Of a stretch of DNA of 64,000 nt, positions 35,167 to 59,286 are shown in pieces. The notes under the pieces were generated by a model, which saw only the letters and a program-made list of their open reading frames with translations, was not told where the DNA came from and ran no database searches. Position 1 is the stretch's first letter, and every line of letters starts with the position of its first letter. The DNA comes from Psychroflexus tropicus DSM 15496 (lineage in GTDB: Bacteria; Bacteroidota; Bacteroidia; Flavobacteriales; Flavobacteriaceae), in assembly GCF_000378765.1 (NCBI RefSeq), contig NZ_KB905343.1:541218-605217 (forward strand), read 5' to 3'. Both the position numbers and the translations under genes were made by a program.

Positions 35167-35174
35167 TATTTTTG
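35167..35174 (+). promoter_or_regulatory. Bacteroidota -7 promoter box (TATTTTTG) of the B12 receptor operon
   Basis: TATTTTTG ends 3 bp before the first base of the cobalamin riboswitch P1 stem, exactly where the promoter of a riboswitch transcript should lie. The -33 element is not obvious. Confidence 0.55.
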
Positions 35175-35177
35175 CAA

Positions 35178-35375
35178 TGCATTTTGGTTCTCAAAGGTCG
35201 TTTTAGCCTTTGAAGATTAAAAGGGAATATCGTGAAATTCGAAAGCTGTTCCCGCAACTGTAAGCTTAGTACGTCCTAGACGTATGCTTTATTCCTCAAC
35301 TTCAAAACCACTGTACGCTTTATGTGTATGGGAAGGTTGAATAAAGACGCGAGCCAGGAGACCTGCCTTAATGCA
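35178..35375 (+). promoter_or_regulatory. Cobalamin (adenosylcobalamin-type) riboswitch
   Basis: The leader carries the conserved cobalamin aptamer order: AAAGG...CCTTT hairpin, AAAAGGGAAT, GTGAAATTCG, GCTGTTCCCGCAACTGTAAG, a variable arm, CCACTG, GGGAAGGT and the B12 box GCGAGCCAGGAGACCTGCC. TGCATT (35178-35183) and AATGCA (35370-35375) close P1. It lies 43 bp before the TonB receptor start and should lower expression of the receptor operon when cobalamin is plentiful. Confidence 0.95.
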
Positions 35376-35418
35376 TAAATTTTAAACAAAGACTTTCGGG
35401 ATAAAAGTCTAGTGGTGT

Positions 35419-37256: not shown

Positions 37257-38330
37257 ATGAAGAATTTTAATTTAATAATTGTAGCTGCTCTTTCAATTTT
37301 ATTTTGCAGTTGTTCCAATGAAGATCCCACGCTTCAAAACGACACGCCTGTTCCAGAAGGCGATTTTACAGATGGCTTTTTTGTGCTCAATGAGGGTGGT
37401 TTTACATACAATAATGCTTCTGTATCTTTTGTGAATGATCAAGGTGAAGTGTTCAACAACATATTTTCTTCAACTAACAATAGAAATCTTGGAGATGTAG
37501 CCCAAAGCATGAGCTTTTATGATGAACTAGCGCTTGTAGTGCTTAATTATTCCAACACCATCGAAGTCGTAAATCGATACACCTTCGAGTCTGTGGCTTC
37601 TATCGAAGATCAAATACTTAATCCACGTTATGCGAGCATTGTTGGAGATAAAGCTTATATCACCAATTGGGGCGACCCTACTGATATTGAAGATGACTAC
37701 GTAGCCATTTTGGATTTAAATACGTTCACTATTCAAGAGAAAATTGAGGTCGTAGAAGGGCCAGAAAAAATCGTAGAAGCAGATGGTAAACTTTATGTTG
37801 CCCATAAAGGGGGGTGGGGTTATGGACATGAAATCTCTGTGATTGATCTTTCTACAAATACAGTACAATCCAAAATAGAAGTAAGCGATGTTCCTGATGG
37901 TATGTTGCATAGCGAAGGTTATTTGTATGTGTTAAGTTCTGGAAAGGCTAGTTGGACAGGGGAAGTTACGAAAGGAGGAATGTTTAAAATTAACACCAGC
38001 AACCTACAAATCGAGGAAGAGTTCGATTTTCCTGATGGAGATCACCCTAAGTTTTTGGTGGAATACGATAATTCTTTACACTATATCTTAGGGAGGGATA
38101 TATTTCGTGTGGAACCATCTAATTTCAATTTGCCCAATTCACCATTTATATCCACTGCCGATCAAGATATTTCGGTACTATATGGGTTCAATATTCATAA
38201 GGACACCGTTTATGTAGCAGATGCTAAAGATTATGTTTCCAATGGTGAAGTGCATCTCTACAATACTTCAGGAGAACATCTTACTAAATACGGCGTACGT
38301 CTTATACCTAACGGATTTTATTTCAATTGA
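37257..38330 (+). CDS. BtuG-like YncE/DUF5074 beta-propeller lipoprotein
   Basis: A 357-residue lipoprotein (FCSCSNEDP, Cys19) folding, by its repeated strand pattern, as a seven-bladed YncE-like propeller: DGFFVLNEGGFTYNNASVSF, NRYTFESVASI, PRYASIVGDKAYITNWGDP in pieces, DGKLYVAHKGGWGYGHEISVIDLSTN, VPDGMLHSEGYLYVLSSG, VYVADAKDYVSNGEV. In Bacteroides, BtuG propellers cap BtuB at the surface and bind B12 very tightly. The position 2 bp after the riboswitch-controlled receptor supports the same job here. Close paralogue of the next gene. Confidence 0.78.
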   Translation: MKNFNLIIVAALSILFCSCSNEDPTLQNDTPVPEGDFTDGFFVLNEGGFTYNNASVSFVNDQGEVFNNIFSSTNNRNLGDVAQSMSFYDELALVVLNYSNTIEVVNRYTFESVASIEDQILNPRYASIVGDKAYITNWGDPTDIEDDYVAILDLNTFTIQEKIEVVEGPEKIVEADGKLYVAHKGGWGYGHEISVIDLSTNTVQSKIEVSDVPDGMLHSEGYLYVLSSGKASWTGEVTKGGMFKINTSNLQIEEEFDFPDGDHPKFLVEYDNSLHYILGRDIFRVEPSNFNLPNSPFISTADQDISVLYGFNIHKDTVYVADAKDYVSNGEVHLYNTSGEHLTKYGVRLIPNGFYFN

Positions 38331-38360: not shown

Positions 38361-39656
38361 ATGAAAAACAATTACTTAGGATTACTTTTAGTCATGTTGG
38401 CTTTGTTTCCATTCAAGAACATTGCGCAAACTTATAACGACGGCGTGTTCATTTTAAATGAAGGCAATTTTGGGGCTGGAAATGCTTCTGTATCATTCTT
38501 AAACGATAACGGCACACTATCAAATGGCATCTTTACCTCAGAAAATCCAGACTTACAGGTTGGTGATACTGCTCAAAGTATGGCTTTTAATGGAGAAGAG
38601 ATCTATATTGTTGCCAACGGCAGCAATAGAATTACCGTGGTAGATAGACTTACATTTGCAGAGATTGCCACTATTGAAACTGGTTTAAACAATCCACGTT
38701 ATGTCGCTTTCGACGAACAGTCGGCTTATGTTACTAACTGGGGTGATGGAACTGTCACGGACGATGATTTTGTAGCTGTTATCGATAGATCCACCTATCA
38801 AGTTACGGAAACTATTCCTATAACAGAAGGACCAGAGGAGATCTTGCGAAGTGGTAACAGTTTATTTGTAGCACACCAAGGGGGGTTCGGTTATGGAAAT
38901 ACCATCTCGGTGATAGATCTTTCTGATGCTAATAGTATTTCAGAAATCCAAACTGGCGACGTTCCTAATTCTCTCGAAATAGATGAGAATTTCCTATACG
39001 TATTATGCGGAGGTGTACCAGATTTTACTGGAAATCCAACTGCTGGAAAACTACAGAGATTCGATTTGAACGATTTTTCTAATGTAGTAGAATTCGATTT
39101 CGAAGTCTCTGATGGGCCTAACTTTTTAGAAGTTGAAAATGGGATAGCTTATTATGTCAATTCCAATTCTATATTTCGAGTTGAATTCAGCAGTGCATCG
39201 CTTCCTGAATCACCTTTTGTAGATACCTCTGGAAGTGGATTAGTGAATACGTATGGTATGGATTTTATTGATGATGTGTTTTATGTCGCAGATGCTAAAG
39301 ATTTTGTAGCTGATGGTGAAGTCTTCACTTTTGATGCCTCTGGTAATTTTCAAACCAGTTATGCGGTAGGTAAATTGCCAATTTCTGTGTATAGATTTAA
39401 TGCCGATAATCTGTCTATTGATGATAATCCAGCTTTGGTTAATCTTAGTTTGTATCCCAACCCTGCTCAAAATAGATTTTATTTAACCAATGCAGAAGAC
39501 GCAACAGTAACAATTTATGATATGAATGGACGTTTGGTAGGCGATTTTACGTATTCAAACTCTGGAATCGGCATTTCTCAGCTCAATGCTGGTATATATG
39601 TCGTCAATATTAAAAAAGATGCTGGGTTTGCCACTAAAAAATTAATTATCGACTAA
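38361..39656 (+). CDS. BtuG-like beta-propeller with T9SS sorting domain
   Basis: A 431-residue paralogue of the previous propeller (DGVFILNEGNFGAGNASVSFL, NNPRYVAFDEQSAYVTNWGDGT in pieces, LFVAHQGGFGYGNTISVIDLSD, VFYVADAKDFVADGEVF), but with a cleavable signal peptide (KNIAQ) in place of a lipobox and a C-terminal type A sorting domain at about 360-431 (SLYPNPAQNRF, NAGIYVVNI, KKLIID). It is thus predicted to leave by the T9SS and be attached or released at the surface. Co-transcription with the receptor under the riboswitch suggests B12 capture. The dual anchoring is unusual. Confidence 0.75.
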   Translation: MKNNYLGLLLVMLALFPFKNIAQTYNDGVFILNEGNFGAGNASVSFLNDNGTLSNGIFTSENPDLQVGDTAQSMAFNGEEIYIVANGSNRITVVDRLTFAEIATIETGLNNPRYVAFDEQSAYVTNWGDGTVTDDDFVAVIDRSTYQVTETIPITEGPEEILRSGNSLFVAHQGGFGYGNTISVIDLSDANSISEIQTGDVPNSLEIDENFLYVLCGGVPDFTGNPTAGKLQRFDLNDFSNVVEFDFEVSDGPNFLEVENGIAYYVNSNSIFRVEFSSASLPESPFVDTSGSGLVNTYGMDFIDDVFYVADAKDFVADGEVFTFDASGNFQTSYAVGKLPISVYRFNADNLSIDDNPALVNLSLYPNPAQNRFYLTNAEDATVTIYDMNGRLVGDFTYSNSGIGISQLNAGIYVVNIKKDAGFATKKLIID

Positions 39657-40765: not shown

Positions 40766-42055
40766 TTGCTTAAACGCTTAAAGACTATAATTCAAGAGTC
40801 ACCTTTATTAAAGGTTGGCTCTTTTAATTCTGTATCTGTAGTCATAAAAATGATCACGGGTTTAGGGGTTTCGAAATTAACGGCCTTGTACCTTGGTCCT
40901 CAAGGTATAGCCCTTATAGGTAATCTGAGAAATGGCTTAGATATTGTTCATAAGTTTTCTTCTGGGGGACTGGATAATGCCGTAGTGAAGTACACATCAG
41001 ATTATCGATCTAATCCTAAAATGCTTCAAGAATTCTTATCGACATTAATTTGGTTAGGTTTAGGAAGTTGTATTCTTAGCATTGCTGTCGTTTTAATGTT
41101 TTCAGAAACAATCAACGATGCCATTTTTGGTAACAGAGACTACGTTACTATCATACGGATTCTTGCGATACTTTTGCCTCTTCATGTGGTGAATATTTAT
41201 TTGATTTCTATACTGAAAGGCGTAGGAGCATTTCATAAAGTCATAAGGGTTAATATAGCATCTCATGTCCTAAACCTGATAGGGTTCGCTTTGCTCTTAA
41301 TGTATTTTGATTTAAGAGGCGCACTTCTAGCTATTATCATTGTGCCTTCAGCAATGCTTATTGTGACGCTTTATTATTTTCAAGACTATTTTGGAATCTT
41401 CCAGGTATTTTCTCTGGCATCATTTTCTAAATTAGTACTAAAGAATTTAAGCCAGTTTGCCTTCATGACTCTTATTTCTAGTATAACATTTCCGTTTGTC
41501 TTCATTGGATTAAGGAATTCTATTATTGAAAGTATAGGAGAGCAGGAGGCCGGTTACTGGGAATCTATGCTTAGGATTTCTTCTTATTATTTATTGTTTG
41601 TCTTGTCTTTATTGAACCTCTATATTTTACCTAAGCTAGCCGATGCCAAAACTCAGTTAGAATTCAAAGGGGTAGTGTTTTCCTTTTACAAACAGATTTT
41701 GCCATTTTACATCGTTGGATTAATTATAGTCTATGTCTTTAGAGATTGGATCATTAAATTGGTGTTTTCTGAAGCGTTTTTACCAGCCGCCGATTTATTT
41801 TTTTGGCAAATAATAGGTGATTTTTTTAGAGTCTTGGCTCTAGTAATGGTCTATCAATTTCACGCAAAAAAAATGATGTGGCATTATATTTTAACCGATT
41901 TGTTTTTAGCTCTTGGTTTATATTTCTCAGCCTTATATTTTATTTCTAAAGTTGGACTTCAGGGAGTCGTTATCGGGCATGCCGTAACCTATTTTTCCTA
42001 TTTCTTACTTATCTTATTTTTGTTTAGGAAACCTTTGATTTTGAAGCAGAGATGA
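40766..42055 (+). CDS. Polysaccharide/O-antigen flippase (Wzx-like, MOP superfamily)
   Basis: A 429-residue membrane protein with about 12 hydrophobic helices. GVSKLTALYLGPQGIALIGNLRNGLDIVHKFSSGGLDNAVVKYTS (in pieces) is characteristic of the O-antigen translocase group. It moves lipid-linked repeat units across the inner membrane. Translation seems to begin at TTG (40766), since no ATG lies before the first conserved segment. The GT2 gene downstream overlaps its stop by 4 bp, forming a surface polysaccharide unit. Confidence 0.88.
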   Translation: MLKRLKTIIQESPLLKVGSFNSVSVVIKMITGLGVSKLTALYLGPQGIALIGNLRNGLDIVHKFSSGGLDNAVVKYTSDYRSNPKMLQEFLSTLIWLGLGSCILSIAVVLMFSETINDAIFGNRDYVTIIRILAILLPLHVVNIYLISILKGVGAFHKVIRVNIASHVLNLIGFALLLMYFDLRGALLAIIIVPSAMLIVTLYYFQDYFGIFQVFSLASFSKLVLKNLSQFAFMTLISSITFPFVFIGLRNSIIESIGEQEAGYWESMLRISSYYLLFVLSLLNLYILPKLADAKTQLEFKGVVFSFYKQILPFYIVGLIIVYVFRDWIIKLVFSEAFLPAADLFFWQIIGDFFRVLALVMVYQFHAKKMMWHYILTDLFLALGLYFSALYFISKVGLQGVVIGHAVTYFSYFLLILFLFRKPLILKQR

Positions 42056-42873
42056 ATCCAAAGCCTAGTTTAGAAATTTTAATTGCTACGATGAATCGAA
42101 AAGACTTGTCTTTTGTTGATGCAATGTTTCCAGTACTGGACTTATCAAGGTATAGGCTTTTAATTATTAATCAAACAAGACTTGAGGAGGATTTAATTTC
42201 TAATGTAGAAGGTATTCGAGTGATAAATTCACGTGAATTTGGATTGAGTAAGAGTCGTAATTTAGGTATTGAAAATGCTTCAGGTGATATTTTGTTGATC
42301 GCAGACGATGATATTGAGTATTTACCAGATTTTGATAAAACTATTCTTGAAGCTTACCAGACCTACAATGAAGCTAGCTTAATTTCTTTTCAATTTCTGG
42401 CTGATAGACCAGAGTACATGAAGTGTTATCCCAAAAAAGATGGATATACTAAATCTAGAAAGCAAAGTCTTACCTCATTTGAAATATCGTTCTTAAGAGC
42501 TGATATTCAATCTAATAAAATTATAATGAATGAAAATTTTGGGCTGGGAGCAGTCTTTCCAAGTGCAGAAGAGCAAGTATTTAAGGACGATGTTTTAAAA
42601 AAGGGATTAAAAATTGCTTATGTGGCAAAACCTATAGTCAAGCATTTTGGAAAAACAACAGGTTATGATCAATCTGATGTCGATTTTATAAGGGCGATTA
42701 CAGCTCAAAAATTTTTGTCTTATGGAACATATAGTTACTTATGGTTATTTAAATTCGTTTTTTTCTTATATAGGCACAGATACATTTCTTTTTTTGAGCA
42801 AGTAAAAGCTTATCAAACTGGGATGAGAGCAATTTTGGAAATCAAAGAAATAAATAATGAAAGTAAACTATAG
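42052..42873 (+). CDS. Glycosyltransferase family 2 protein
   Basis: A 273-residue GT-A enzyme. LEILIATMNRKDLSF starts the fold, SREFGLSKSRNLGIENASGDILLIADDD (in pieces) carries the acceptor-region Arg and the D-D-D metal motif near residue 83, and GLGAVFPSAEEQVFKDDVLKKG follows. A C-terminal hydrophobic helix (LWLFKFVFFLY) and basic tail probably dock it to the membrane. The sugar and acceptor are unknown. It overlaps the flippase gene, and its C-terminus resembles the small ORF that overlaps its end. Confidence 0.87.
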   Translation: MNPKPSLEILIATMNRKDLSFVDAMFPVLDLSRYRLLIINQTRLEEDLISNVEGIRVINSREFGLSKSRNLGIENASGDILLIADDDIEYLPDFDKTILEAYQTYNEASLISFQFLADRPEYMKCYPKKDGYTKSRKQSLTSFEISFLRADIQSNKIIMNENFGLGAVFPSAEEQVFKDDVLKKGLKIAYVAKPIVKHFGKTTGYDQSDVDFIRAITAQKFLSYGTYSYLWLFKFVFFLYRHRYISFFEQVKAYQTGMRAILEIKEINNESKL

Positions 42874-43036
42874 TCAGATAATATTCTGGATTGCACCAGT
42901 ACTTATTAGTACACTTTTTGAATATTTATTTTTCATGTACAGGAAGAGCTATGTATCATTTTTTCAACAAGGAGAGGCTTTTAAATTCGGATTAGAGGGC
43001 ATTAAAAAAATTCAAAACATCGAAGATGAAAAGTGA
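42857..43036 (+). CDS. Small membrane ORF resembling the C-terminus of the adjacent glycosyltransferase
   Basis: A 59-codon ORF that fills the gap between the GT2 gene (17-nt overlap) and the sulfatase-fold gene (11-nt overlap). It starts MKVNYSQIIFWIAPVLIS and has one membrane helix. Residues after the helix, FMYRKSYVSFFQQGEAFKFGL, match FLYRHRYISFFEQVKAYQTGM of the upstream glycosyltransferase at many positions, and the lengths to the stop are similar. So it is either the remnant of a tandem GT2 duplicate that lost its catalytic part, or a short membrane protein kept for a purpose. The upstream catalytic part is absent. Confidence 0.55.
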   Translation: MKVNYSQIIFWIAPVLISTLFEYLFFMYRKSYVSFFQQGEAFKFGLEGIKKIQNIEDEK

Positions 43037-44615
43037 TCTTAAAGTCTTACTTATATGGTTTTTTCCGGTCATCACTTGTTTTGTCTTTGAACTTAGTTTT
43101 GCAGAGTTTAGAGGCTATTCAGTTAAGAATTTAATCGAAAATTCATTCATAATTGGTGTCGTAATACTTTCCCTGTCATTTATTAGGAATGAAGACATAA
43201 GGCGGTTATTGCTAAAACTATTTTACCTAGTCTTAGTGATTTCTTTTTGTATTGAAAGCATCTACTTTTACGTATTTGACACTTACTTTTCAACTTCTGC
43301 CATATTCATTTTTTTGGAAACCAACCTAGATGAAGTAATGGAGTTTTCCCAAAACTATTTCGACTTTAATATTGCCTTACTATTGCTCATCAATTTTATT
43401 TTTGGCATATGGTTCTTATTTAGAAAACCCTCTAGTTTAAATTTGAATTATTTAAAATATAGCCGATACTTGAAACTTATAGCTATTCTTACTTTTTCAG
43501 CTACACTTTATGGAACAGGTTATTATTTTTCGAATTTTCAATACCAGTTCATAAAAGGTGTTATAGAATACAGAAGTGAAATTGATAAATATGAATCCAG
43601 TGGCATAACCAATCCTGAAGGAGACTTTGAAGATGTAAAGTTTAAAGGTGATGAAACTCCCCATACCTTTATCCTTGTAATAGGGGAGTCGACCACCAGA
43701 CATCACATGGGAATATATGACTTTCACAGATCTACAACTCCTAAGTTGTCAAACCTAAAAAGTGATCTGCTAATTTATCAAGATGTTATCAGTCCTCACT
43801 CACACACCATAGAATCCCTTCAGGAGGCTTTAACCCTGAATAATTTCAAGAGCCAGACCGAATCTACGATCATCCAATTGTTCAATCAGGCTGGATTTAA
43901 GACTTATTGGTTTTCAAATCAAAATCCCATCGGTATTTATGATACATTACTCTCTAAAATAGCTAAAGCCTCAGATGAAGTGCAATTCACCAACATGGCT
44001 AATTATGGGTCAACAACACCTTTTGATGAAGTATTGCTGCCTCTTTTGGATGATGCTATTGCAGATCAAGAGCAAAATACTTTAGTGGTACTGCATCTAC
44101 TTGCTACCCACGGCCGATACCAATTGAGGTACCCAGAACAGTTTGAAGTTTTTACAGGGACGACTCAATCTCCTTTCAGAAGCGAATCCAATGATGTACA
44201 TATCAACACCTATCACAATTCTATTGTTTATGTTGACCATATTCTGAAGCAGGTGATTAGTAAAGTAGAAGCTAAAAAGAATAAAAGTTATGTTCTGTAT
44301 TTTTCAGATCATGGAGAAGAGGTGTTTTTAGATAAAGATTTTTTTGGTCATAACGACCTCGAACAACCAACGAGGTCTATGTTTGATATTCCATTTATCC
44401 TTTGGCGTTCAGATCATTTTAAAAACCAATATGCATTGGATTATGAGCCAAATCGACCTTACAGTATTCAAGATTTAATACATTCTGTTTCAGACTTATC
44501 TCAAATTAAGTTCAAAAGACAAGACTTGAGTAAAAGTATTTTTTCAGATCAATTTAAGCCTTTTAAGCGAATTATTTCTGGAGAAAAGAATTATGACACC
44601 TATTTTAAAAAATAG
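43026..44615 (+). CDS. Phosphoethanolamine transferase-like (EptA/CptA) sulfatase-fold protein
   Basis: A 529-residue inner-membrane protein with five N-terminal helices (about 9-170) and a periplasmic sulfatase-fold domain. FILVIGESTTRHHMGIYDFHRSTTPKL (in pieces) holds the Thr nucleophile, LLATHGRYQLRYP and YVLYFSDHGEEVF the metal ligands, and FGHNDLEQPTRSMFDIPFILW the closing motif. Relatives add phosphoethanolamine to lipid A or core sugars. It ends a plus-strand polysaccharide unit with the flippase and GT2 genes and faces a convergent GT2 gene 21 bp away. Confidence 0.87.
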   Translation: MKSDLKVLLIWFFPVITCFVFELSFAEFRGYSVKNLIENSFIIGVVILSLSFIRNEDIRRLLLKLFYLVLVISFCIESIYFYVFDTYFSTSAIFIFLETNLDEVMEFSQNYFDFNIALLLLINFIFGIWFLFRKPSSLNLNYLKYSRYLKLIAILTFSATLYGTGYYFSNFQYQFIKGVIEYRSEIDKYESSGITNPEGDFEDVKFKGDETPHTFILVIGESTTRHHMGIYDFHRSTTPKLSNLKSDLLIYQDVISPHSHTIESLQEALTLNNFKSQTESTIIQLFNQAGFKTYWFSNQNPIGIYDTLLSKIAKASDEVQFTNMANYGSTTPFDEVLLPLLDDAIADQEQNTLVVLHLLATHGRYQLRYPEQFEVFTGTTQSPFRSESNDVHINTYHNSIVYVDHILKQVISKVEAKKNKSYVLYFSDHGEEVFLDKDFFGHNDLEQPTRSMFDIPFILWRSDHFKNQYALDYEPNRPYSIQDLIHSVSDLSQIKFKRQDLSKSIFSDQFKPFKRIISGEKNYDTYFKK

Positions 44616-44636: not shown

Positions 44637-45569
44637 TCATCGATGTGCACTCTGGTAGATATCCTGCTTAATCAAAAAGGTCTGAACGCTCTTAAGGATA
44701 CGTAACATAGTACCAGGTAACTTAAGTAAAAACCTTTGTTTTGAATTTAAGTTTTTTAGATCGATGTCCTTACGAATCGACTTCCATTCTGGTATTCGAT
44801 TCATTTTGTAGAGTATTGTCAATGCAAATCGATTGCTATCTAAAAAAGTTTTTAAGGACGATATTTCTTTTTCCTCTCTTATATACTTTTTGAATATTTT
44901 AATGCGATCTGAAATTGATTTAGATTTGGCTAGATTGTTTTCAGATTGCGTAATATAGCGAGCAGTAACCTCAGGATTGAAAGCTATTATTGAAGATAAT
45001 CCCAATCTTATCATTAGATCCGTATCTTGTCCCGATTTAATTTGTTCATCAAAGCCTCCCACATCATTAAAAATTTTCTTTGTAAATCCAAGAGCTGAGG
45101 TCCAGCCGAGGGCATCGATTTGACTGGCTTCAAAATAATCTTGAATATATTGAGCTTTAAATGGCTCATTTAAGGAATAAGATGGCTGCTTAAGATGTGT
45201 GTTATTAAGCAATACTTCATAATTATTACAAATCACATTTGCTTCTGGAAACTTTAGAATAGTGTTATTTAGCTCTTCCAAATGATCAGGGTACCAATAG
45301 TCATCGGCATCTAGTAAGGCGATCCATTCGTACTGAGCTTTTTCTACTCCCAAATTTCTTGCAGCAGAGGCGCCTTTATTGTTTTGATGAATTAGCCGAA
45401 GTCTTGAATCTTTGATGTTTTCGATTATTTGTTCACTGCCATCTGTACTGCCATCGTTTACAACAATCACTTCAAAATTTTGATAGGATTGATTTAAAAC
45501 GCTTTCTAAACAGTCTTTAATAAAATTGACCTTGTTGTACAAGGGGATGATAACAGAGAAGAAGGTCAT
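44637..45569 (-). CDS. Glycosyltransferase family 2 protein
   Basis: A 310-residue GT-A glycosyltransferase. FFSVIIPLYNKVNFIKDCLESVLNQSYQNFEVIVVNDGSTDGS (in pieces) with the first Asp, GASAARNLGVEKAQYEWIALLDADDYW with the DxD motif near residue 90, and GGFDEQIKSGQDTDLMIRLGL with the catalytic-base region are all intact. The donor is unknown. It overlaps the upstream GT2 gene by 4 bp, so the two are coupled and likely act on the same surface glycan. Confidence 0.9.
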   Translation of the reverse strand: MTFFSVIIPLYNKVNFIKDCLESVLNQSYQNFEVIVVNDGSTDGSEQIIENIKDSRLRLIHQNNKGASAARNLGVEKAQYEWIALLDADDYWYPDHLEELNNTILKFPEANVICNNYEVLLNNTHLKQPSYSLNEPFKAQYIQDYFEASQIDALGWTSALGFTKKIFNDVGGFDEQIKSGQDTDLMIRLGLSSIIAFNPEVTARYITQSENNLAKSKSISDRIKIFKKYIREEKEISSLKTFLDSNRFALTILYKMNRIPEWKSIRKDIDLKNLNSKQRFLLKLPGTMLRILKSVQTFLIKQDIYQSAHR

Positions 45570-46456
45570 TTTTTTGAAGTGTATTTAGCGAAATAATAAA
45601 GCTTATATATATCAAACCAAAACATCCTAGGCTGTTTTGAAAGTAAATGATTTTTGATGATATTTTTAAAGGGAGCAAAAGAAGCTAAAAACAGTTGTAA
45701 ACTTATGTTCGATTTCATTTTATAATACAATCGTGTTAACGGAGTTGATTGATTTGAAACTTTATTCTTTTGTATCAGCTGCCTTAAGTTTTTTAATGCG
45801 AGTTCAGTTTTTTCTATGAAAACTTTAGAAGTTTCAAGCCCTTTATGAATCACTGGATTATCTATCTGGCAAACCATCAGTCGCTTTTTTTTAAGCTCTT
45901 CAGAGAAGATGAGATCTTCATAACCGTAAGAGGTTAATTCTGGATCAAAAATCGGAAAACTGAAAGCTGACTTCCTGAGTAGCAGATTCGAAACTAACAC
46001 ATGATATTGTAACTCTTTCTTTCTAATTTTTATAGATTTCGCCTCTTTTTGGTGACCGTAAATCCATCTCAAACGTTTTGATTCTTCTGGAAGATTATCA
46101 TCATAGGTCAATCCTCCATAAACCACATCACAGCCCTCGTCAATACTTTGCTTATAATTCCTAATAAAATCGGTTCTTAAAGGAATAACATCATTATCTA
46201 AACATAAAACGTAGTCAAATTTGGCTGCATCAATAAGTTTATTCAGATTATTTGATCGTCCTAAATTAGATGTGTTTTTCCAATAAGAGACGGTCTCAAA
46301 ATGTTTCAGTTTTTGTTCATTTACATTCTTTCCGCTAGGATCATCGTCTGAGATTAAAATCTCGTAATTAAGATCTAACTGTTGACATTGTTGATCTATT
46401 TCAGATACAATCTCAATAACCGAATCGTTATATGTTCTAATGAGCACCGATAGCAT
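45566..46456 (-). CDS. Glycosyltransferase family 2 protein
   Basis: A 296-residue GT-A enzyme from the ATG at 46456. LSVLIRTYNDSVIEIVSEI, ISDDDPSGKN, LGRSNNLNKLIDAAKFDYVLCLDNDVIPL (DND metal motif) and TSYGYEDLIFSEELKKKRL are typical. The frame extends nine codons upstream, but the ATG at 46456 lies one base after the peptidase stop (TAAGATG), a natural coupling. Sugar specificity unknown; a C-terminal hydrophobic segment may attach it to the membrane. Confidence 0.87.
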   Translation of the reverse strand: MLSVLIRTYNDSVIEIVSEIDQQCQQLDLNYEILISDDDPSGKNVNEQKLKHFETVSYWKNTSNLGRSNNLNKLIDAAKFDYVLCLDNDVIPLRTDFIRNYKQSIDEGCDVVYGGLTYDDNLPEESKRLRWIYGHQKEAKSIKIRKKELQYHVLVSNLLLRKSAFSFPIFDPELTSYGYEDLIFSEELKKKRLMVCQIDNPVIHKGLETSKVFIEKTELALKNLRQLIQKNKVSNQSTPLTRLYYKMKSNISLQLFLASFAPFKNIIKNHLLSKQPRMFWFDIYKLYYFAKYTSKK

Positions 46457-46457
46457 C

Positions 46458-48596
46458 TTATTCTTTTGGAACTGGAAAACCACGATCTCTCATGAGAGCA
46501 TCTATCTCGGCGTCTCTACCTCTAAACAACCTGTAAGCTTCTGCAGGGTCCATGGCATTTCTTGGAGCAAATAAAAAGTCTACTAATTTTTGAGATAGAG
46601 CTTCATCGTAAAAACCTCCTTCTGCTTGAGCAAAAGCTTCTGCAGCATCAGAAGTGAGTACATCGGCCCAAAGATACCCATAGTAACCAGTGGCATAGCC
46701 TTCGCCAGAGAACACATGTCCAAAATGAGGTGAGCGATGGCGCATGACCAACTCTTTTGGCATTCCTAGTTCATCTAAAGTTTCCTTTTCAAAAGTTTTT
46801 GGATCTATCTTTTCAGGGTTGGTGGTGTGGTACTTCATATCCATTATCGCAGAAGCTAAAAACTCAGTAGTAGCGAATCCCTGATTAAATTTGGATGCTT
46901 TTTTAATTTTGGTGATAAGTTTCTCAGGCATAGGTTTTCCCGTATCGTGATGTTTCAGAAATTTAGAAATCACCTCATCGGTATAAATCCAGCGCTCTAA
47001 AAGTTGAGATTGAAATTCTGTATAATCCCTAACTCCTCCGTTTAAAGTGGGATACTTCACGTCTGCACTTAAGAAATGTAAAGCGTGACCAAATTCGTGG
47101 AAGAAGGTTTCGGCATCATCCCAGGACACCAGAACCGGCTCCCCTTTAGCTGCTTTTACAAAATTAGAATTGTTGGAAGCTAAAACATTGGTTTCTCCAT
47201 CGAAGCTGGTGTAAGATCTATAAGTAGTCGCCCAGGCTCCAGAGCGCTTGCCTTTTCTGGCGTAAGGATCCAGATAGAATAAACCAATATGCTCGCCATT
47301 GGTTGTGCTGGTCACTTCGTAAACCTTAACGTCTTCATGAAATACAGGAACGCTGCCATCTGTTATCTCCTCAAAATTAAAATCAAATAATCGACCAGCT
47401 ACATAAAATATAGCCTCTGTCAGATTATCGAGCACGAGGTAATTCTTCACTTCTTCAGAATCCAGGTTGTATTTTTCCTGCCTTACTTTTTCAGCATAGT
47501 ACCTGTAATCCCAAGCTTGGATTTCAATTCCATTGTTCTCTCGATCTGCAATAGCTTGCATATCTTCAACTTCTTCCTCCACCCGAGCTACTGCAGAAGG
47601 CCATACTGCCATCAAAAGATTCATGGCGTTTTCTGGATTTTTGGCCATTCTGTCTTGTAATCTCCATTCGGCATAATTGTCATATCCTAACAGTTCTACC
47701 CGTTCATCTCTAAGTTTTAAAATCTCTTTTATGATTTGGTTATTATCGTATTTATCGCCATTATCTCCTCTGGAATAGTAGTTCTTCCATACTTTTTCTC
47801 TTAAGGCCCTTTCATCAGAATAGGTAAGAAAGGGATCCATAGAAGACCTTGTATTAACGATGGCATACTGGTCTGGTTTTCCCTGCCGTTCCGCTTCTTT
47901 TTGGGCCGATTTAATAAACGATTCAGGTAAACCACTCAATTGATCGGCGTTGAGAAAAGTGACATAATTTTCTTCATCATGAAGTACATTATTAGAAAAG
48001 TTGGTATACAGCTTGGCAAGTTCCTTATTGATTTCCGCATAGCGTTCTTTTCCAGCTTTGTCTAAATTAGCCCCGTTCATTTCAAATGACTTGTATACCA
48101 AATCTACAACTCTTTGCTGTTGCGGCTCCAAGGGGTTATTCTTACTCTGTTCATAAACAGATTTAATTCTATTGAATAACTTTTCGTTTTGACGAATTTT
48201 AGATTGATAGTCCGATAATTTAGGGGATAGCTTTTGCTGAATAGCTCTAAATTCCTCTGATGACTTGTTACTACTCCAAATGCCATAGTAAGTATACACT
48301 CTATCAACCAATTTTCCTGAGCGTTCCATAGCTACGATTGTATTTTCAAAATTAGCAGCATCCTTATTTTCCGCTATCTTTTCAATTTCTTCGAGGTGTT
48401 TAGCCATTGCATAGTCCATTGCCGGTTCTAAATCCTCTAGTTTCATGCTTTCAAACCCTGGTACGCCTTCATAAGGCCCATCCCATTCCTGAAGCAAAGT
48501 ATTTTCTGTCATTTGTTTGTCTTTAGTCTTGTCTTTTTTGGAACATCCTGTGCTTATGAGTAAGCTGAGGATTAATAGAGTAATAATTGATTTCAT
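46458..48596 (-). CDS. dcp: M3 family metallopeptidase (peptidyl-dipeptidase Dcp-like) lipoprotein
   Basis: A 712-residue zinc peptidase. From the ATG at 48596 it begins with a lipoprotein signal (LISTGCSKK, Cys18); a TTG at 48617 only lengthens the frame. The zinc site is HEFGH (FFHEFGHALHFL, H500/E501/H504) and GYLWADVLTSDAAEAF and PRNAMDPAEAYRLFRGRD belong to the M3/thimet family C-terminus. It removes dipeptides from peptide C-termini, here in the periplasm or outer membrane. The GT2 pair follows directly, probably by chance. Confidence 0.93.
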   Translation of the reverse strand: MKSIITLLILSLLISTGCSKKDKTKDKQMTENTLLQEWDGPYEGVPGFESMKLEDLEPAMDYAMAKHLEEIEKIAENKDAANFENTIVAMERSGKLVDRVYTYYGIWSSNKSSEEFRAIQQKLSPKLSDYQSKIRQNEKLFNRIKSVYEQSKNNPLEPQQQRVVDLVYKSFEMNGANLDKAGKERYAEINKELAKLYTNFSNNVLHDEENYVTFLNADQLSGLPESFIKSAQKEAERQGKPDQYAIVNTRSSMDPFLTYSDERALREKVWKNYYSRGDNGDKYDNNQIIKEILKLRDERVELLGYDNYAEWRLQDRMAKNPENAMNLLMAVWPSAVARVEEEVEDMQAIADRENNGIEIQAWDYRYYAEKVRQEKYNLDSEEVKNYLVLDNLTEAIFYVAGRLFDFNFEEITDGSVPVFHEDVKVYEVTSTTNGEHIGLFYLDPYARKGKRSGAWATTYRSYTSFDGETNVLASNNSNFVKAAKGEPVLVSWDDAETFFHEFGHALHFLSADVKYPTLNGGVRDYTEFQSQLLERWIYTDEVISKFLKHHDTGKPMPEKLITKIKKASKFNQGFATTEFLASAIMDMKYHTTNPEKIDPKTFEKETLDELGMPKELVMRHRSPHFGHVFSGEGYATGYYGYLWADVLTSDAAEAFAQAEGGFYDEALSQKLVDFLFAPRNAMDPAEAYRLFRGRDAEIDALMRDRGFPVPKE

Positions 48597-58932: not shown

Positions 58933-59202
58933 TTATTTTCTTAATCCTAATTCTTTAACGATGGCTCTGTATCTCATGATGTCTTTTTTCATGAGGTAGT
59001 CGAGAAGATTTCTTCTTTTACCAACTAGTTTAACCAAAGATCTTTCAGAATTAAAATCTTTTCTGTTTGTTTTTAAGTGTTGAGAAATGTGCTCAATTCT
59101 CTGAGTCATCAAAGCGATCTGGCCTTCTGCAGAACCAGAATCTTTCTCGTTCTTACCGTGTTTAGCAAATAATTTGCCTTTTTCTTCTAATGTTAAGTAC
59201 AT
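58933..59202 (-). CDS. rpsO: 30S ribosomal protein S15
   Basis: An 89-residue ribosomal protein of standard length that binds the central domain of 16S rRNA early in 30S assembly. KHGKNEKDSGSAEGQIALMTQRIEHISQHLKTN and SERSLVKLVGKRRNLLDYLMKKD (in pieces) are highly conserved. It sits directly upstream of pnp. A full TTG-N19-TACTTTTG promoter precedes it and a terminator follows. Confidence 0.98.
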   Translation of the reverse strand: MYLTLEEKGKLFAKHGKNEKDSGSAEGQIALMTQRIEHISQHLKTNRKDFNSERSLVKLVGKRRNLLDYLMKKDIMRYRAIVKELGLRK

Positions 59203-59256
59203 GCCAATATTATTTCAATAATTTTTATGCTAGAATAGATTTTCTATTCAATCCTG

Positions 59257-59286
59257 CAAAAGTAATCTTTTAAATGGAGATAGCAA
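59257..59286 (-). promoter_or_regulatory. Housekeeping promoter of rpsO (TTG-N19-TACTTTTG)
   Basis: On the minus strand TTG (59286-59284), exactly 19 bp, then TACTTTTG (59264-59257): a full match to the Bacteroidota RpoD consensus, giving a leader of roughly 50 nt before the rpsO ATG. Confidence 0.7.

Follow-up and report, generated by a model that had tools for sequence, protein, structure and literature searches.

In fusion genes born by deletion, the start of one open reading frame (ORF) becomes attached to the end of another through a structural change, according to the part of the preprint by Kaul et al. used here (PMC12803068). For gene pairs of Escherichia coli and Haloferax, the sections of PMC10666635 drawn on here indicate that gaps of about 20–38 nt nearly abolish translational coupling and that the upstream gene's final 15 nt are enough for it, a distance rule that derives from these organisms and not from Bacteroidota. 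Homology-facilitated illegitimate recombination, in the excerpt of PMC3240628 considered, attaches a donor fragment through homology at one end and an illegitimate join at the other and produces an offset junction.

The locus described here lies within a window of 64,000 nucleotides (the whole stretch of DNA that was analysed) from the 3.0-Mb genome of Psychroflexus tropicus DSM 15496, designated G000 in comparisons. A flippase-like gene (FLIP), a glycosyltransferase gene (GT2), a 59-codon ORF, and a gene for a sulfatase-fold protein (SULF) form an overlapping row on the + strand, GT2 and SULF being read as genes of the sugar coat. Like the deletion-born fusions in the cited part of PMC12803068, the ORF is a new frame made of existing coding material and has no known function. 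Unlike those fusions, as far as the same text describes them, it combines the start of the downstream gene with the end of the upstream one, it lies between its parents and overlaps both, and both parents are intact, with no parent sequence lost. With the translationally coupled overlapping pairs covered by the cited portions of PMC10666635 and PMC6728339, the row shares its tight geometry, with successive overlaps of 4, 17, and 11 nt, but its middle member is a newborn chimera and its coupling is a prediction. The process outlined in the excerpt of PMC3240628 is only a candidate route to the ORF. Among the papers listed in the open-licence literature searched, none dealt with fusion genes that arose when an overlapping junction in bacteria was copied, and no paper combined Psychroflexus and phosphoethanolamine transferase. 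We consider it fairly probable that the ORF arose as a fusion gene when the GT2/SULF junction was duplicated, with a predicted bridging role in the coupling of SULF to GT2.

Gene row and predicted small protein

The coordinates of all features are collected in Table 1. The FLIP product scored 198 bits with the WzxE model and 23.8 bits with MatE, both under their cut-offs. For SULF, the best NCBIfam model was CptA PRK10649 (330.6 bits, under the curated cut-off of 404), and the nearest solved structure by sequence was EptC 5zzu. A structural model of GT2 based on five sequences had a pLDDT of 69, with C-terminal helices at 210–241 and 249–271, and was too weak to serve as a basis for conclusions.

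Table 1. Features of the FLIP-GT2-ORF-SULF locus (positions in the window)
Feature	Coordinates	Strand	Remarks
FLIP, flippase-like gene	40766..42055	+	4-nt overlap with GT2 start; TTG start as listed, putative
GT2 glycosyltransferase, intact upstream parent	42052..42873	+	PF00535 38.2 bits, cut-off 23.3
Small chimeric ORF, 59 aa; SULF start fused in frame to GT2 end	42857..43036	+	
SULF, sulfatase-fold, CptA-like phosphoethanolamine transferase, intact downstream parent	43026..44615	+	PF00884 152 bits, cut-off 25
GT2 end/ORF start overlap	42857..42873	+	17 nt
ORF end/SULF start overlap	43026..43036	+	11 nt; GT2 and SULF overlap with this geometry in six relatives
SULF-start-derived part of the ORF, first membrane helix	42857..42922	+	Lag-169 match 34/66; SULF identity in relatives
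GT2-end-derived part of the ORF, 39 residues and stop	42917..43036	+	Score 102 against own GT2; GT2 ends of relatives
169-bp junction unit, left copy, with GT2 end and SULF-like start	42748..42916	+	Limits uncertain by several bases
169-bp junction unit, right copy, with GT2-like end and SULF start	42917..43085	+	Limits uncertain by several bases
Probable crossover site TTTGAATAT	42917..42925	+	SULF and GT2 sequences resemble one another here

The ORF opens with ATG. It overlaps both neighbours, as the sequence-only reading had it, and stop and start codons overlap at both of its borders, a feature of translationally coupled genes. The 19-residue hydropathy of its product peaks at 1.99 at residues 8–26, a value compatible with one membrane helix, and a single-sequence structure model consisted of one helix spanning residues 5–58 (pLDDT 93). 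No Pfam or NCBIfam match was obtained for this protein. A known small protein family was rejected as an explanation on these grounds and on the absence of any whole-length homologue outside G000 among 27 genomes of the genus and 397 of the family.

Structured RNA at the locus was likewise dismissed, as a search of Rfam at gathering thresholds gave three RNAs in the window and none within FLIP-GT2-ORF-SULF. A cobalamin riboswitch (95.7 bits, 35168–35384, + strand) lies upstream of the genes that precede the row, while a tmRNA gene (2567–2968, − strand) and an S15-Flavobacteria ribosomal leader (59200–59264, − strand) are found elsewhere in the window. By eye, the translations of the neighbouring genes at 37257–38330 and 38361–39656 (+ strand) resemble tandem paralogues. 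Two GT2-type glycosyltransferase genes on the − strand (44637–45569 and 45566–46483), with a mutual 4-nt overlap, are convergent with SULF.

Chimeric composition of the ORF

Residues 20–58 of the ORF aligned without gaps to residues 232–270 of GT2 with a BLOSUM62 score of 102, and none of 2,000 shuffled sequences scored as high (best 54), so that the earlier claim of a copied GT2 C-terminus was confirmed, the copy comprising the last 39–40 residues. GT2, used as a query in a search of 60 relatives, also recovered the ORF in its own genome (E 1.6e-5, 41% over residues 231–271). The tail (residues 19/20–58) similarly resembled GT2 ends of other genomes, at 51% in G021, 48% in G025, 41% in G024, and 35% in G007, all values for G021, G025, G024, G012, G004, and G007 falling within 35%–51%.

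The head of the ORF has another source. Its residues 1–29 matched the start of SULF in the same genome weakly (score 47, equalled or exceeded in 23 of 2,000 shuffles) and matched the SULF starts of relatives at 55% (G024), 45% (G025), and 52% (G007); for G021, identity over residues 1–38 was 34%. In a search of 27 genus genomes, paired adjacent matches to a GT2 end and a SULF start were found in four relatives (G021, G025, G024, and G007), and the GT2 end alone was matched in five further genomes. Taken from these comparisons, the ORF is a chimera with a SULF-type head and a GT2-type tail, and this origin is well shown. Chance similarity to the neighbours was ruled out by the shuffle scores and by the self-match at lag 169 described below. 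Among 18 small ORFs present in 35 gaps of 60–600 nt in the window and 23 loci (four of which duplicate stretches present under another id), only the 59-codon ORF resembled the end or start of a neighbour.

The sequence-only reading had also placed the origin of the hydrophobic helix in the GT2 end. Although the similarity of the tails is real, the best 19-residue hydropathy is 1.16 within the C-terminal 60 residues of GT2 and 2.21 within the N-terminal 40 residues of SULF, and the predicted helix of the ORF, peaking at residues 8–26, derives mostly from the SULF start and not from GT2.

The 169-bp repeat and a probable crossover site

At a lag of 169 bases, the DNA of 42748–42922 matched itself at 98 of 175 positions, the next best among 839 other lags giving 72. 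The match extended over both sides of the ORF start, with 64 of 109 positions before it (42748–42856) and 34 of 66 after it (42857–42922), neither value being equalled at any of the 839 other lags, and it was at background on either flank (32/108 and 21/78). Since the length of the self-match approximates its own lag, a two-copy tandem unit is indicated, and since the match is confined to about one period across the junction, what was duplicated is the GT2/SULF junction rather than a second GT2 gene. The period of 169 equals 1 modulo 3, which is the frame offset of SULF relative to GT2 (+1); therefore, the copy of the SULF start continues in frame into that of the GT2 end. Where the two meet, the ORF contains TTTGAATAT, which is also found in SULF of G021, while TTTAAATAT occupies the corresponding place in GT2 of G025, and this short stretch is the probable site of crossover. 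Because the start comes from the downstream gene and the end from the upstream gene, a duplication or an unequal exchange is needed, and a single deletion in a two-gene row would be insufficient.

These bounds bear on the earlier proposal that the ORF is all that is left of a complete second GT2 gene, reduced to its membrane-docking end. The tail similarity behind this proposal is genuine, and a full tandem GT2-SULF copy followed by deletion would yield an identical product. However, about the first third of the ORF goes back to the SULF start, a part that a stump of GT2 would not account for by itself, the bounds of the repeat fit the junction, and none of the 23 stretches examined contained two GT2-SULF pairs in tandem. 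The SULF-derived N-terminal part rules out the stump as the sole account, and we regard the descent from a whole second GT2 as very improbable.

Distribution and the ancestral junction

A whole-length match to the ORF was obtained in one of the 27 genus genomes, G000 itself; the other 26 lacked the ORF. Among 397 family genomes, the matches were partial only, G000 excepted. Those in G266 and G105 contained internal stops.

In 18 other genomes, GT2 is directly followed by SULF without the ORF; these are 15 genomes (14 from the genus plus G032, which belongs to another) together with G026, G018, and G005. Of the 15, 14 have a candidate SULF ATG that overlaps the GT2 end, between −3 and −49 counted from where the GT2 stop codon ends. 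The exception is G002, in which SULF has no overlapping ATG and could start with TTG at −3 or ATG at +3. The overlap of GT2 and SULF is 11 nt in G021, G025, G007, G024, G012, and G004, exactly as between the ORF and SULF, and both borders of the ORF are copies of the native GT2/SULF border. The overlap of GT2 with the ORF is 17 nt because GT2 reads on for two codons compared with G021 (AGT AAA CTA TAG at the GT2 end in the window and AGT TAA TTA TAG in G021). SULF precedes GT2 in G003, G022, and G019 and is missing in G034; hence, the two genes are not always coupled in this order.

The SULF region varies between genomes. In the loci L062 and L063 (G021 and G025), SULF and the following ~400–500 bp are very different, while the flanks are ~90%–97% alike, as if a block had been exchanged. 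In G012, G001, and G015, a quite different type of SULF occupies the same place.

Duplication or exchange between diverged alleles

Unequal exchange between diverged alleles is a serious alternative to simple tandem duplication. On this basis, the ORF could be a neutral scar, left when a donor GT2 tail with SULF recombined unequally with the host junction; the two halves would have diverged beforehand, and the ORF would be young, open by inheritance, and inert. Comparison of G021 with G025 is in line with such events, with 91%–98% identity in FLIP, 88%–91% in most of GT2, 75%–79% in the last 300 bp of GT2, 54%–73% in SULF, and 51%–55% just past it, rising to 85%–97% from about 500 bp beyond. 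Between G024 and G012, identity is 79%–86% over the final 300 bp of GT2, drops to 47%–67% in SULF, and stays low well past this gene. Moreover, the placements of G021 and G025 conflict between the SULF and GT2 trees. From these sequence patterns, SULF looks like a gene swapped within the genus, with the left border at or near the GT2/SULF junction. On the other hand, the discordance of SULF is explained equally well by a swap in G021, the SULF branch of G000 is long, and a donor was not found among the genomes searched: in a search of family genomes with SULF, 40 of 149 genomes were matched, the best match outside the genus was 41%, and none represented a closer donor. An rpoB tree of 17 genomes was compatible with G000 branching either with or apart from G021/G025 (AU p 0.15).

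The trees of the two halves of the ORF rest on 39 (GT2-like) and 24 (SULF-like) codons, too few to separate duplication from exchange. The GT2-like half leaned towards G021/G025 and away from its own GT2 (RELL 0.92 for three placements versus 0.05), but parentage by the own GT2 was not rejected at 0.05 (KH p 0.08, AU p 0.097). For the SULF-like half, identity was 29% to the own SULF and 58% to SULF of G024, and again own parentage was not rejected (AU p 0.44). The protein branch of the GT2-like half, 1.31 compared with a median of 0.15, would be odd for a GT2 end that had recently been working.

The choice between duplication and exchange affects how the intact frame is read. The earlier argument that an intact frame and tight overlaps speak against decay was correct in that both are present, but both pieces were already open frames. 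A fusion of pieces from two diverged alleles could be recent despite its intact frame, and the openness of the frame would then reflect inheritance and not be a sign of use. We see the inert scar as a tentative possibility that deserves some weight.

Predicted bridging role

Under the favoured duplication of the junction, the ancestor would have carried GT2 and SULF overlapping by ~11 nt, and a 169-bp stretch comprising ~40 codons from the end of GT2 and ~20 from the beginning of SULF would have become a tandem pair, the copies being joined at a short resemblance of SULF and GT2. The new ORF would thereby have received a SULF-type start overlapping the GT2 stop and a GT2-type stop overlapping the SULF start, the parents staying whole. 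Ribosomes finishing GT2 would restart on the ORF, terminate at its stop, and restart on SULF. By spanning an otherwise 152-nt gap between the GT2 stop and the SULF start, the ORF would keep SULF coupled to GT2; it is this gap, set against the short distances of coupling, that points to a bridge. The peptide itself would be a one-helix membrane micro-protein of which no activity is required. Translation of the ORF and coupling of SULF through it are thus predicted from the gene layout, and the frame, if kept, would be kept mainly as a bridge.

In Flavobacterium johnsoniae, A at −3, −6, −12, and −13 favours initiation, according to the part of PMC6847099 used here. At the ORF start, three of these positions (−3, −12, and −13) are A and −6 is T, and the same three A residues occur at the SULF starts of G021, G025, G020, and G012, four of the nine relatives listed. 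The own start of SULF has A at −3 and −12, and it might initiate alone, without the bridge.

An internal promoter for SULF was also considered and rejected. The pattern TANNTTTG, which we take to represent the Bacteroidota −7 element, had no match on the + strand between 42023 and 43093, its frequency in the window being near chance (95 found, 85 expected).

Possible selection on the peptide

The 59-aa peptide could instead be a functional small membrane protein with a conserved sequence that gained or kept a role after the fusion, such as that of a membrane dock for GT2 or SULF. Its hydropathy maximum and the modelled helix suit a single membrane helix. In the codon model for the GT2-like half, the omega of the ORF branch was 0.05–0.08, and omega = 1 was worse by 3.5–6.9 log units over six placements, although the constraint measured in this way mixes the periods before and after the fusion. 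For the SULF-like half, omega = 1 was worse by 1.1–4.5 log units over eight placements, which is not always clear. Over its 39 codons, the GT2-like half differed from G021 at 16 first, 5 second, and 27 third positions, and simulated neutral drift at 0.9–1.3 changes per codon left the frame free of stops in only 4.5%–11% of runs. Selection on residues of the GT2-like half would be more than a pure bridge requires and would therefore count against a role as a bridge only.

Several observations oppose a functional peptide. The ORF is confined to one of 27 genus genomes, its product lacks a Pfam or NCBIfam match, and its branch lengths are near saturation in the free codon model. The low omega may come down from a donor GT2 end; neutral drift of the GT2-like half is rejected by the codon statistics, yet this signal may be inherited if the junction arose by exchange of alleles. 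At sites invariant elsewhere, the ORF changed 11 of 65 (7/26, 2/31, and 2/8 by codon position), without a clear excess at third positions (p = 0.61 for first and second versus third, p = 0.047 for second versus the rest). On balance, a conserved function of the peptide itself appears rather unlikely.

The bridge and the peptide may also be connected in time. Junction copying would give an in-frame coupled gene in about one-third of cases by frame alone, the need to translate the downstream gene would hold the frame open and allow a protein function to evolve, and the ORF would have lasted until its sequence came under selection. We put this succession forward with considerable reserve.

Biological meaning

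The ORF is a single event in one genome, and it represents a gene-birth case of modest scale with a clear origin. It provides a concrete route of gene birth in bacteria, in which the duplication of an overlapping junction gives rise to a fusion born with start, stop, and coupling signals. Before a short ORF that resembles the tail of an upstream gene is classed as a remnant, it should be checked against the start of the gene that follows. Copying of junctions could account for some of the lineage-specific small ORFs wedged in operons, and the ORF raises the question of whether a new frame may be preserved by the need for coupling rather than by the function of its peptide.
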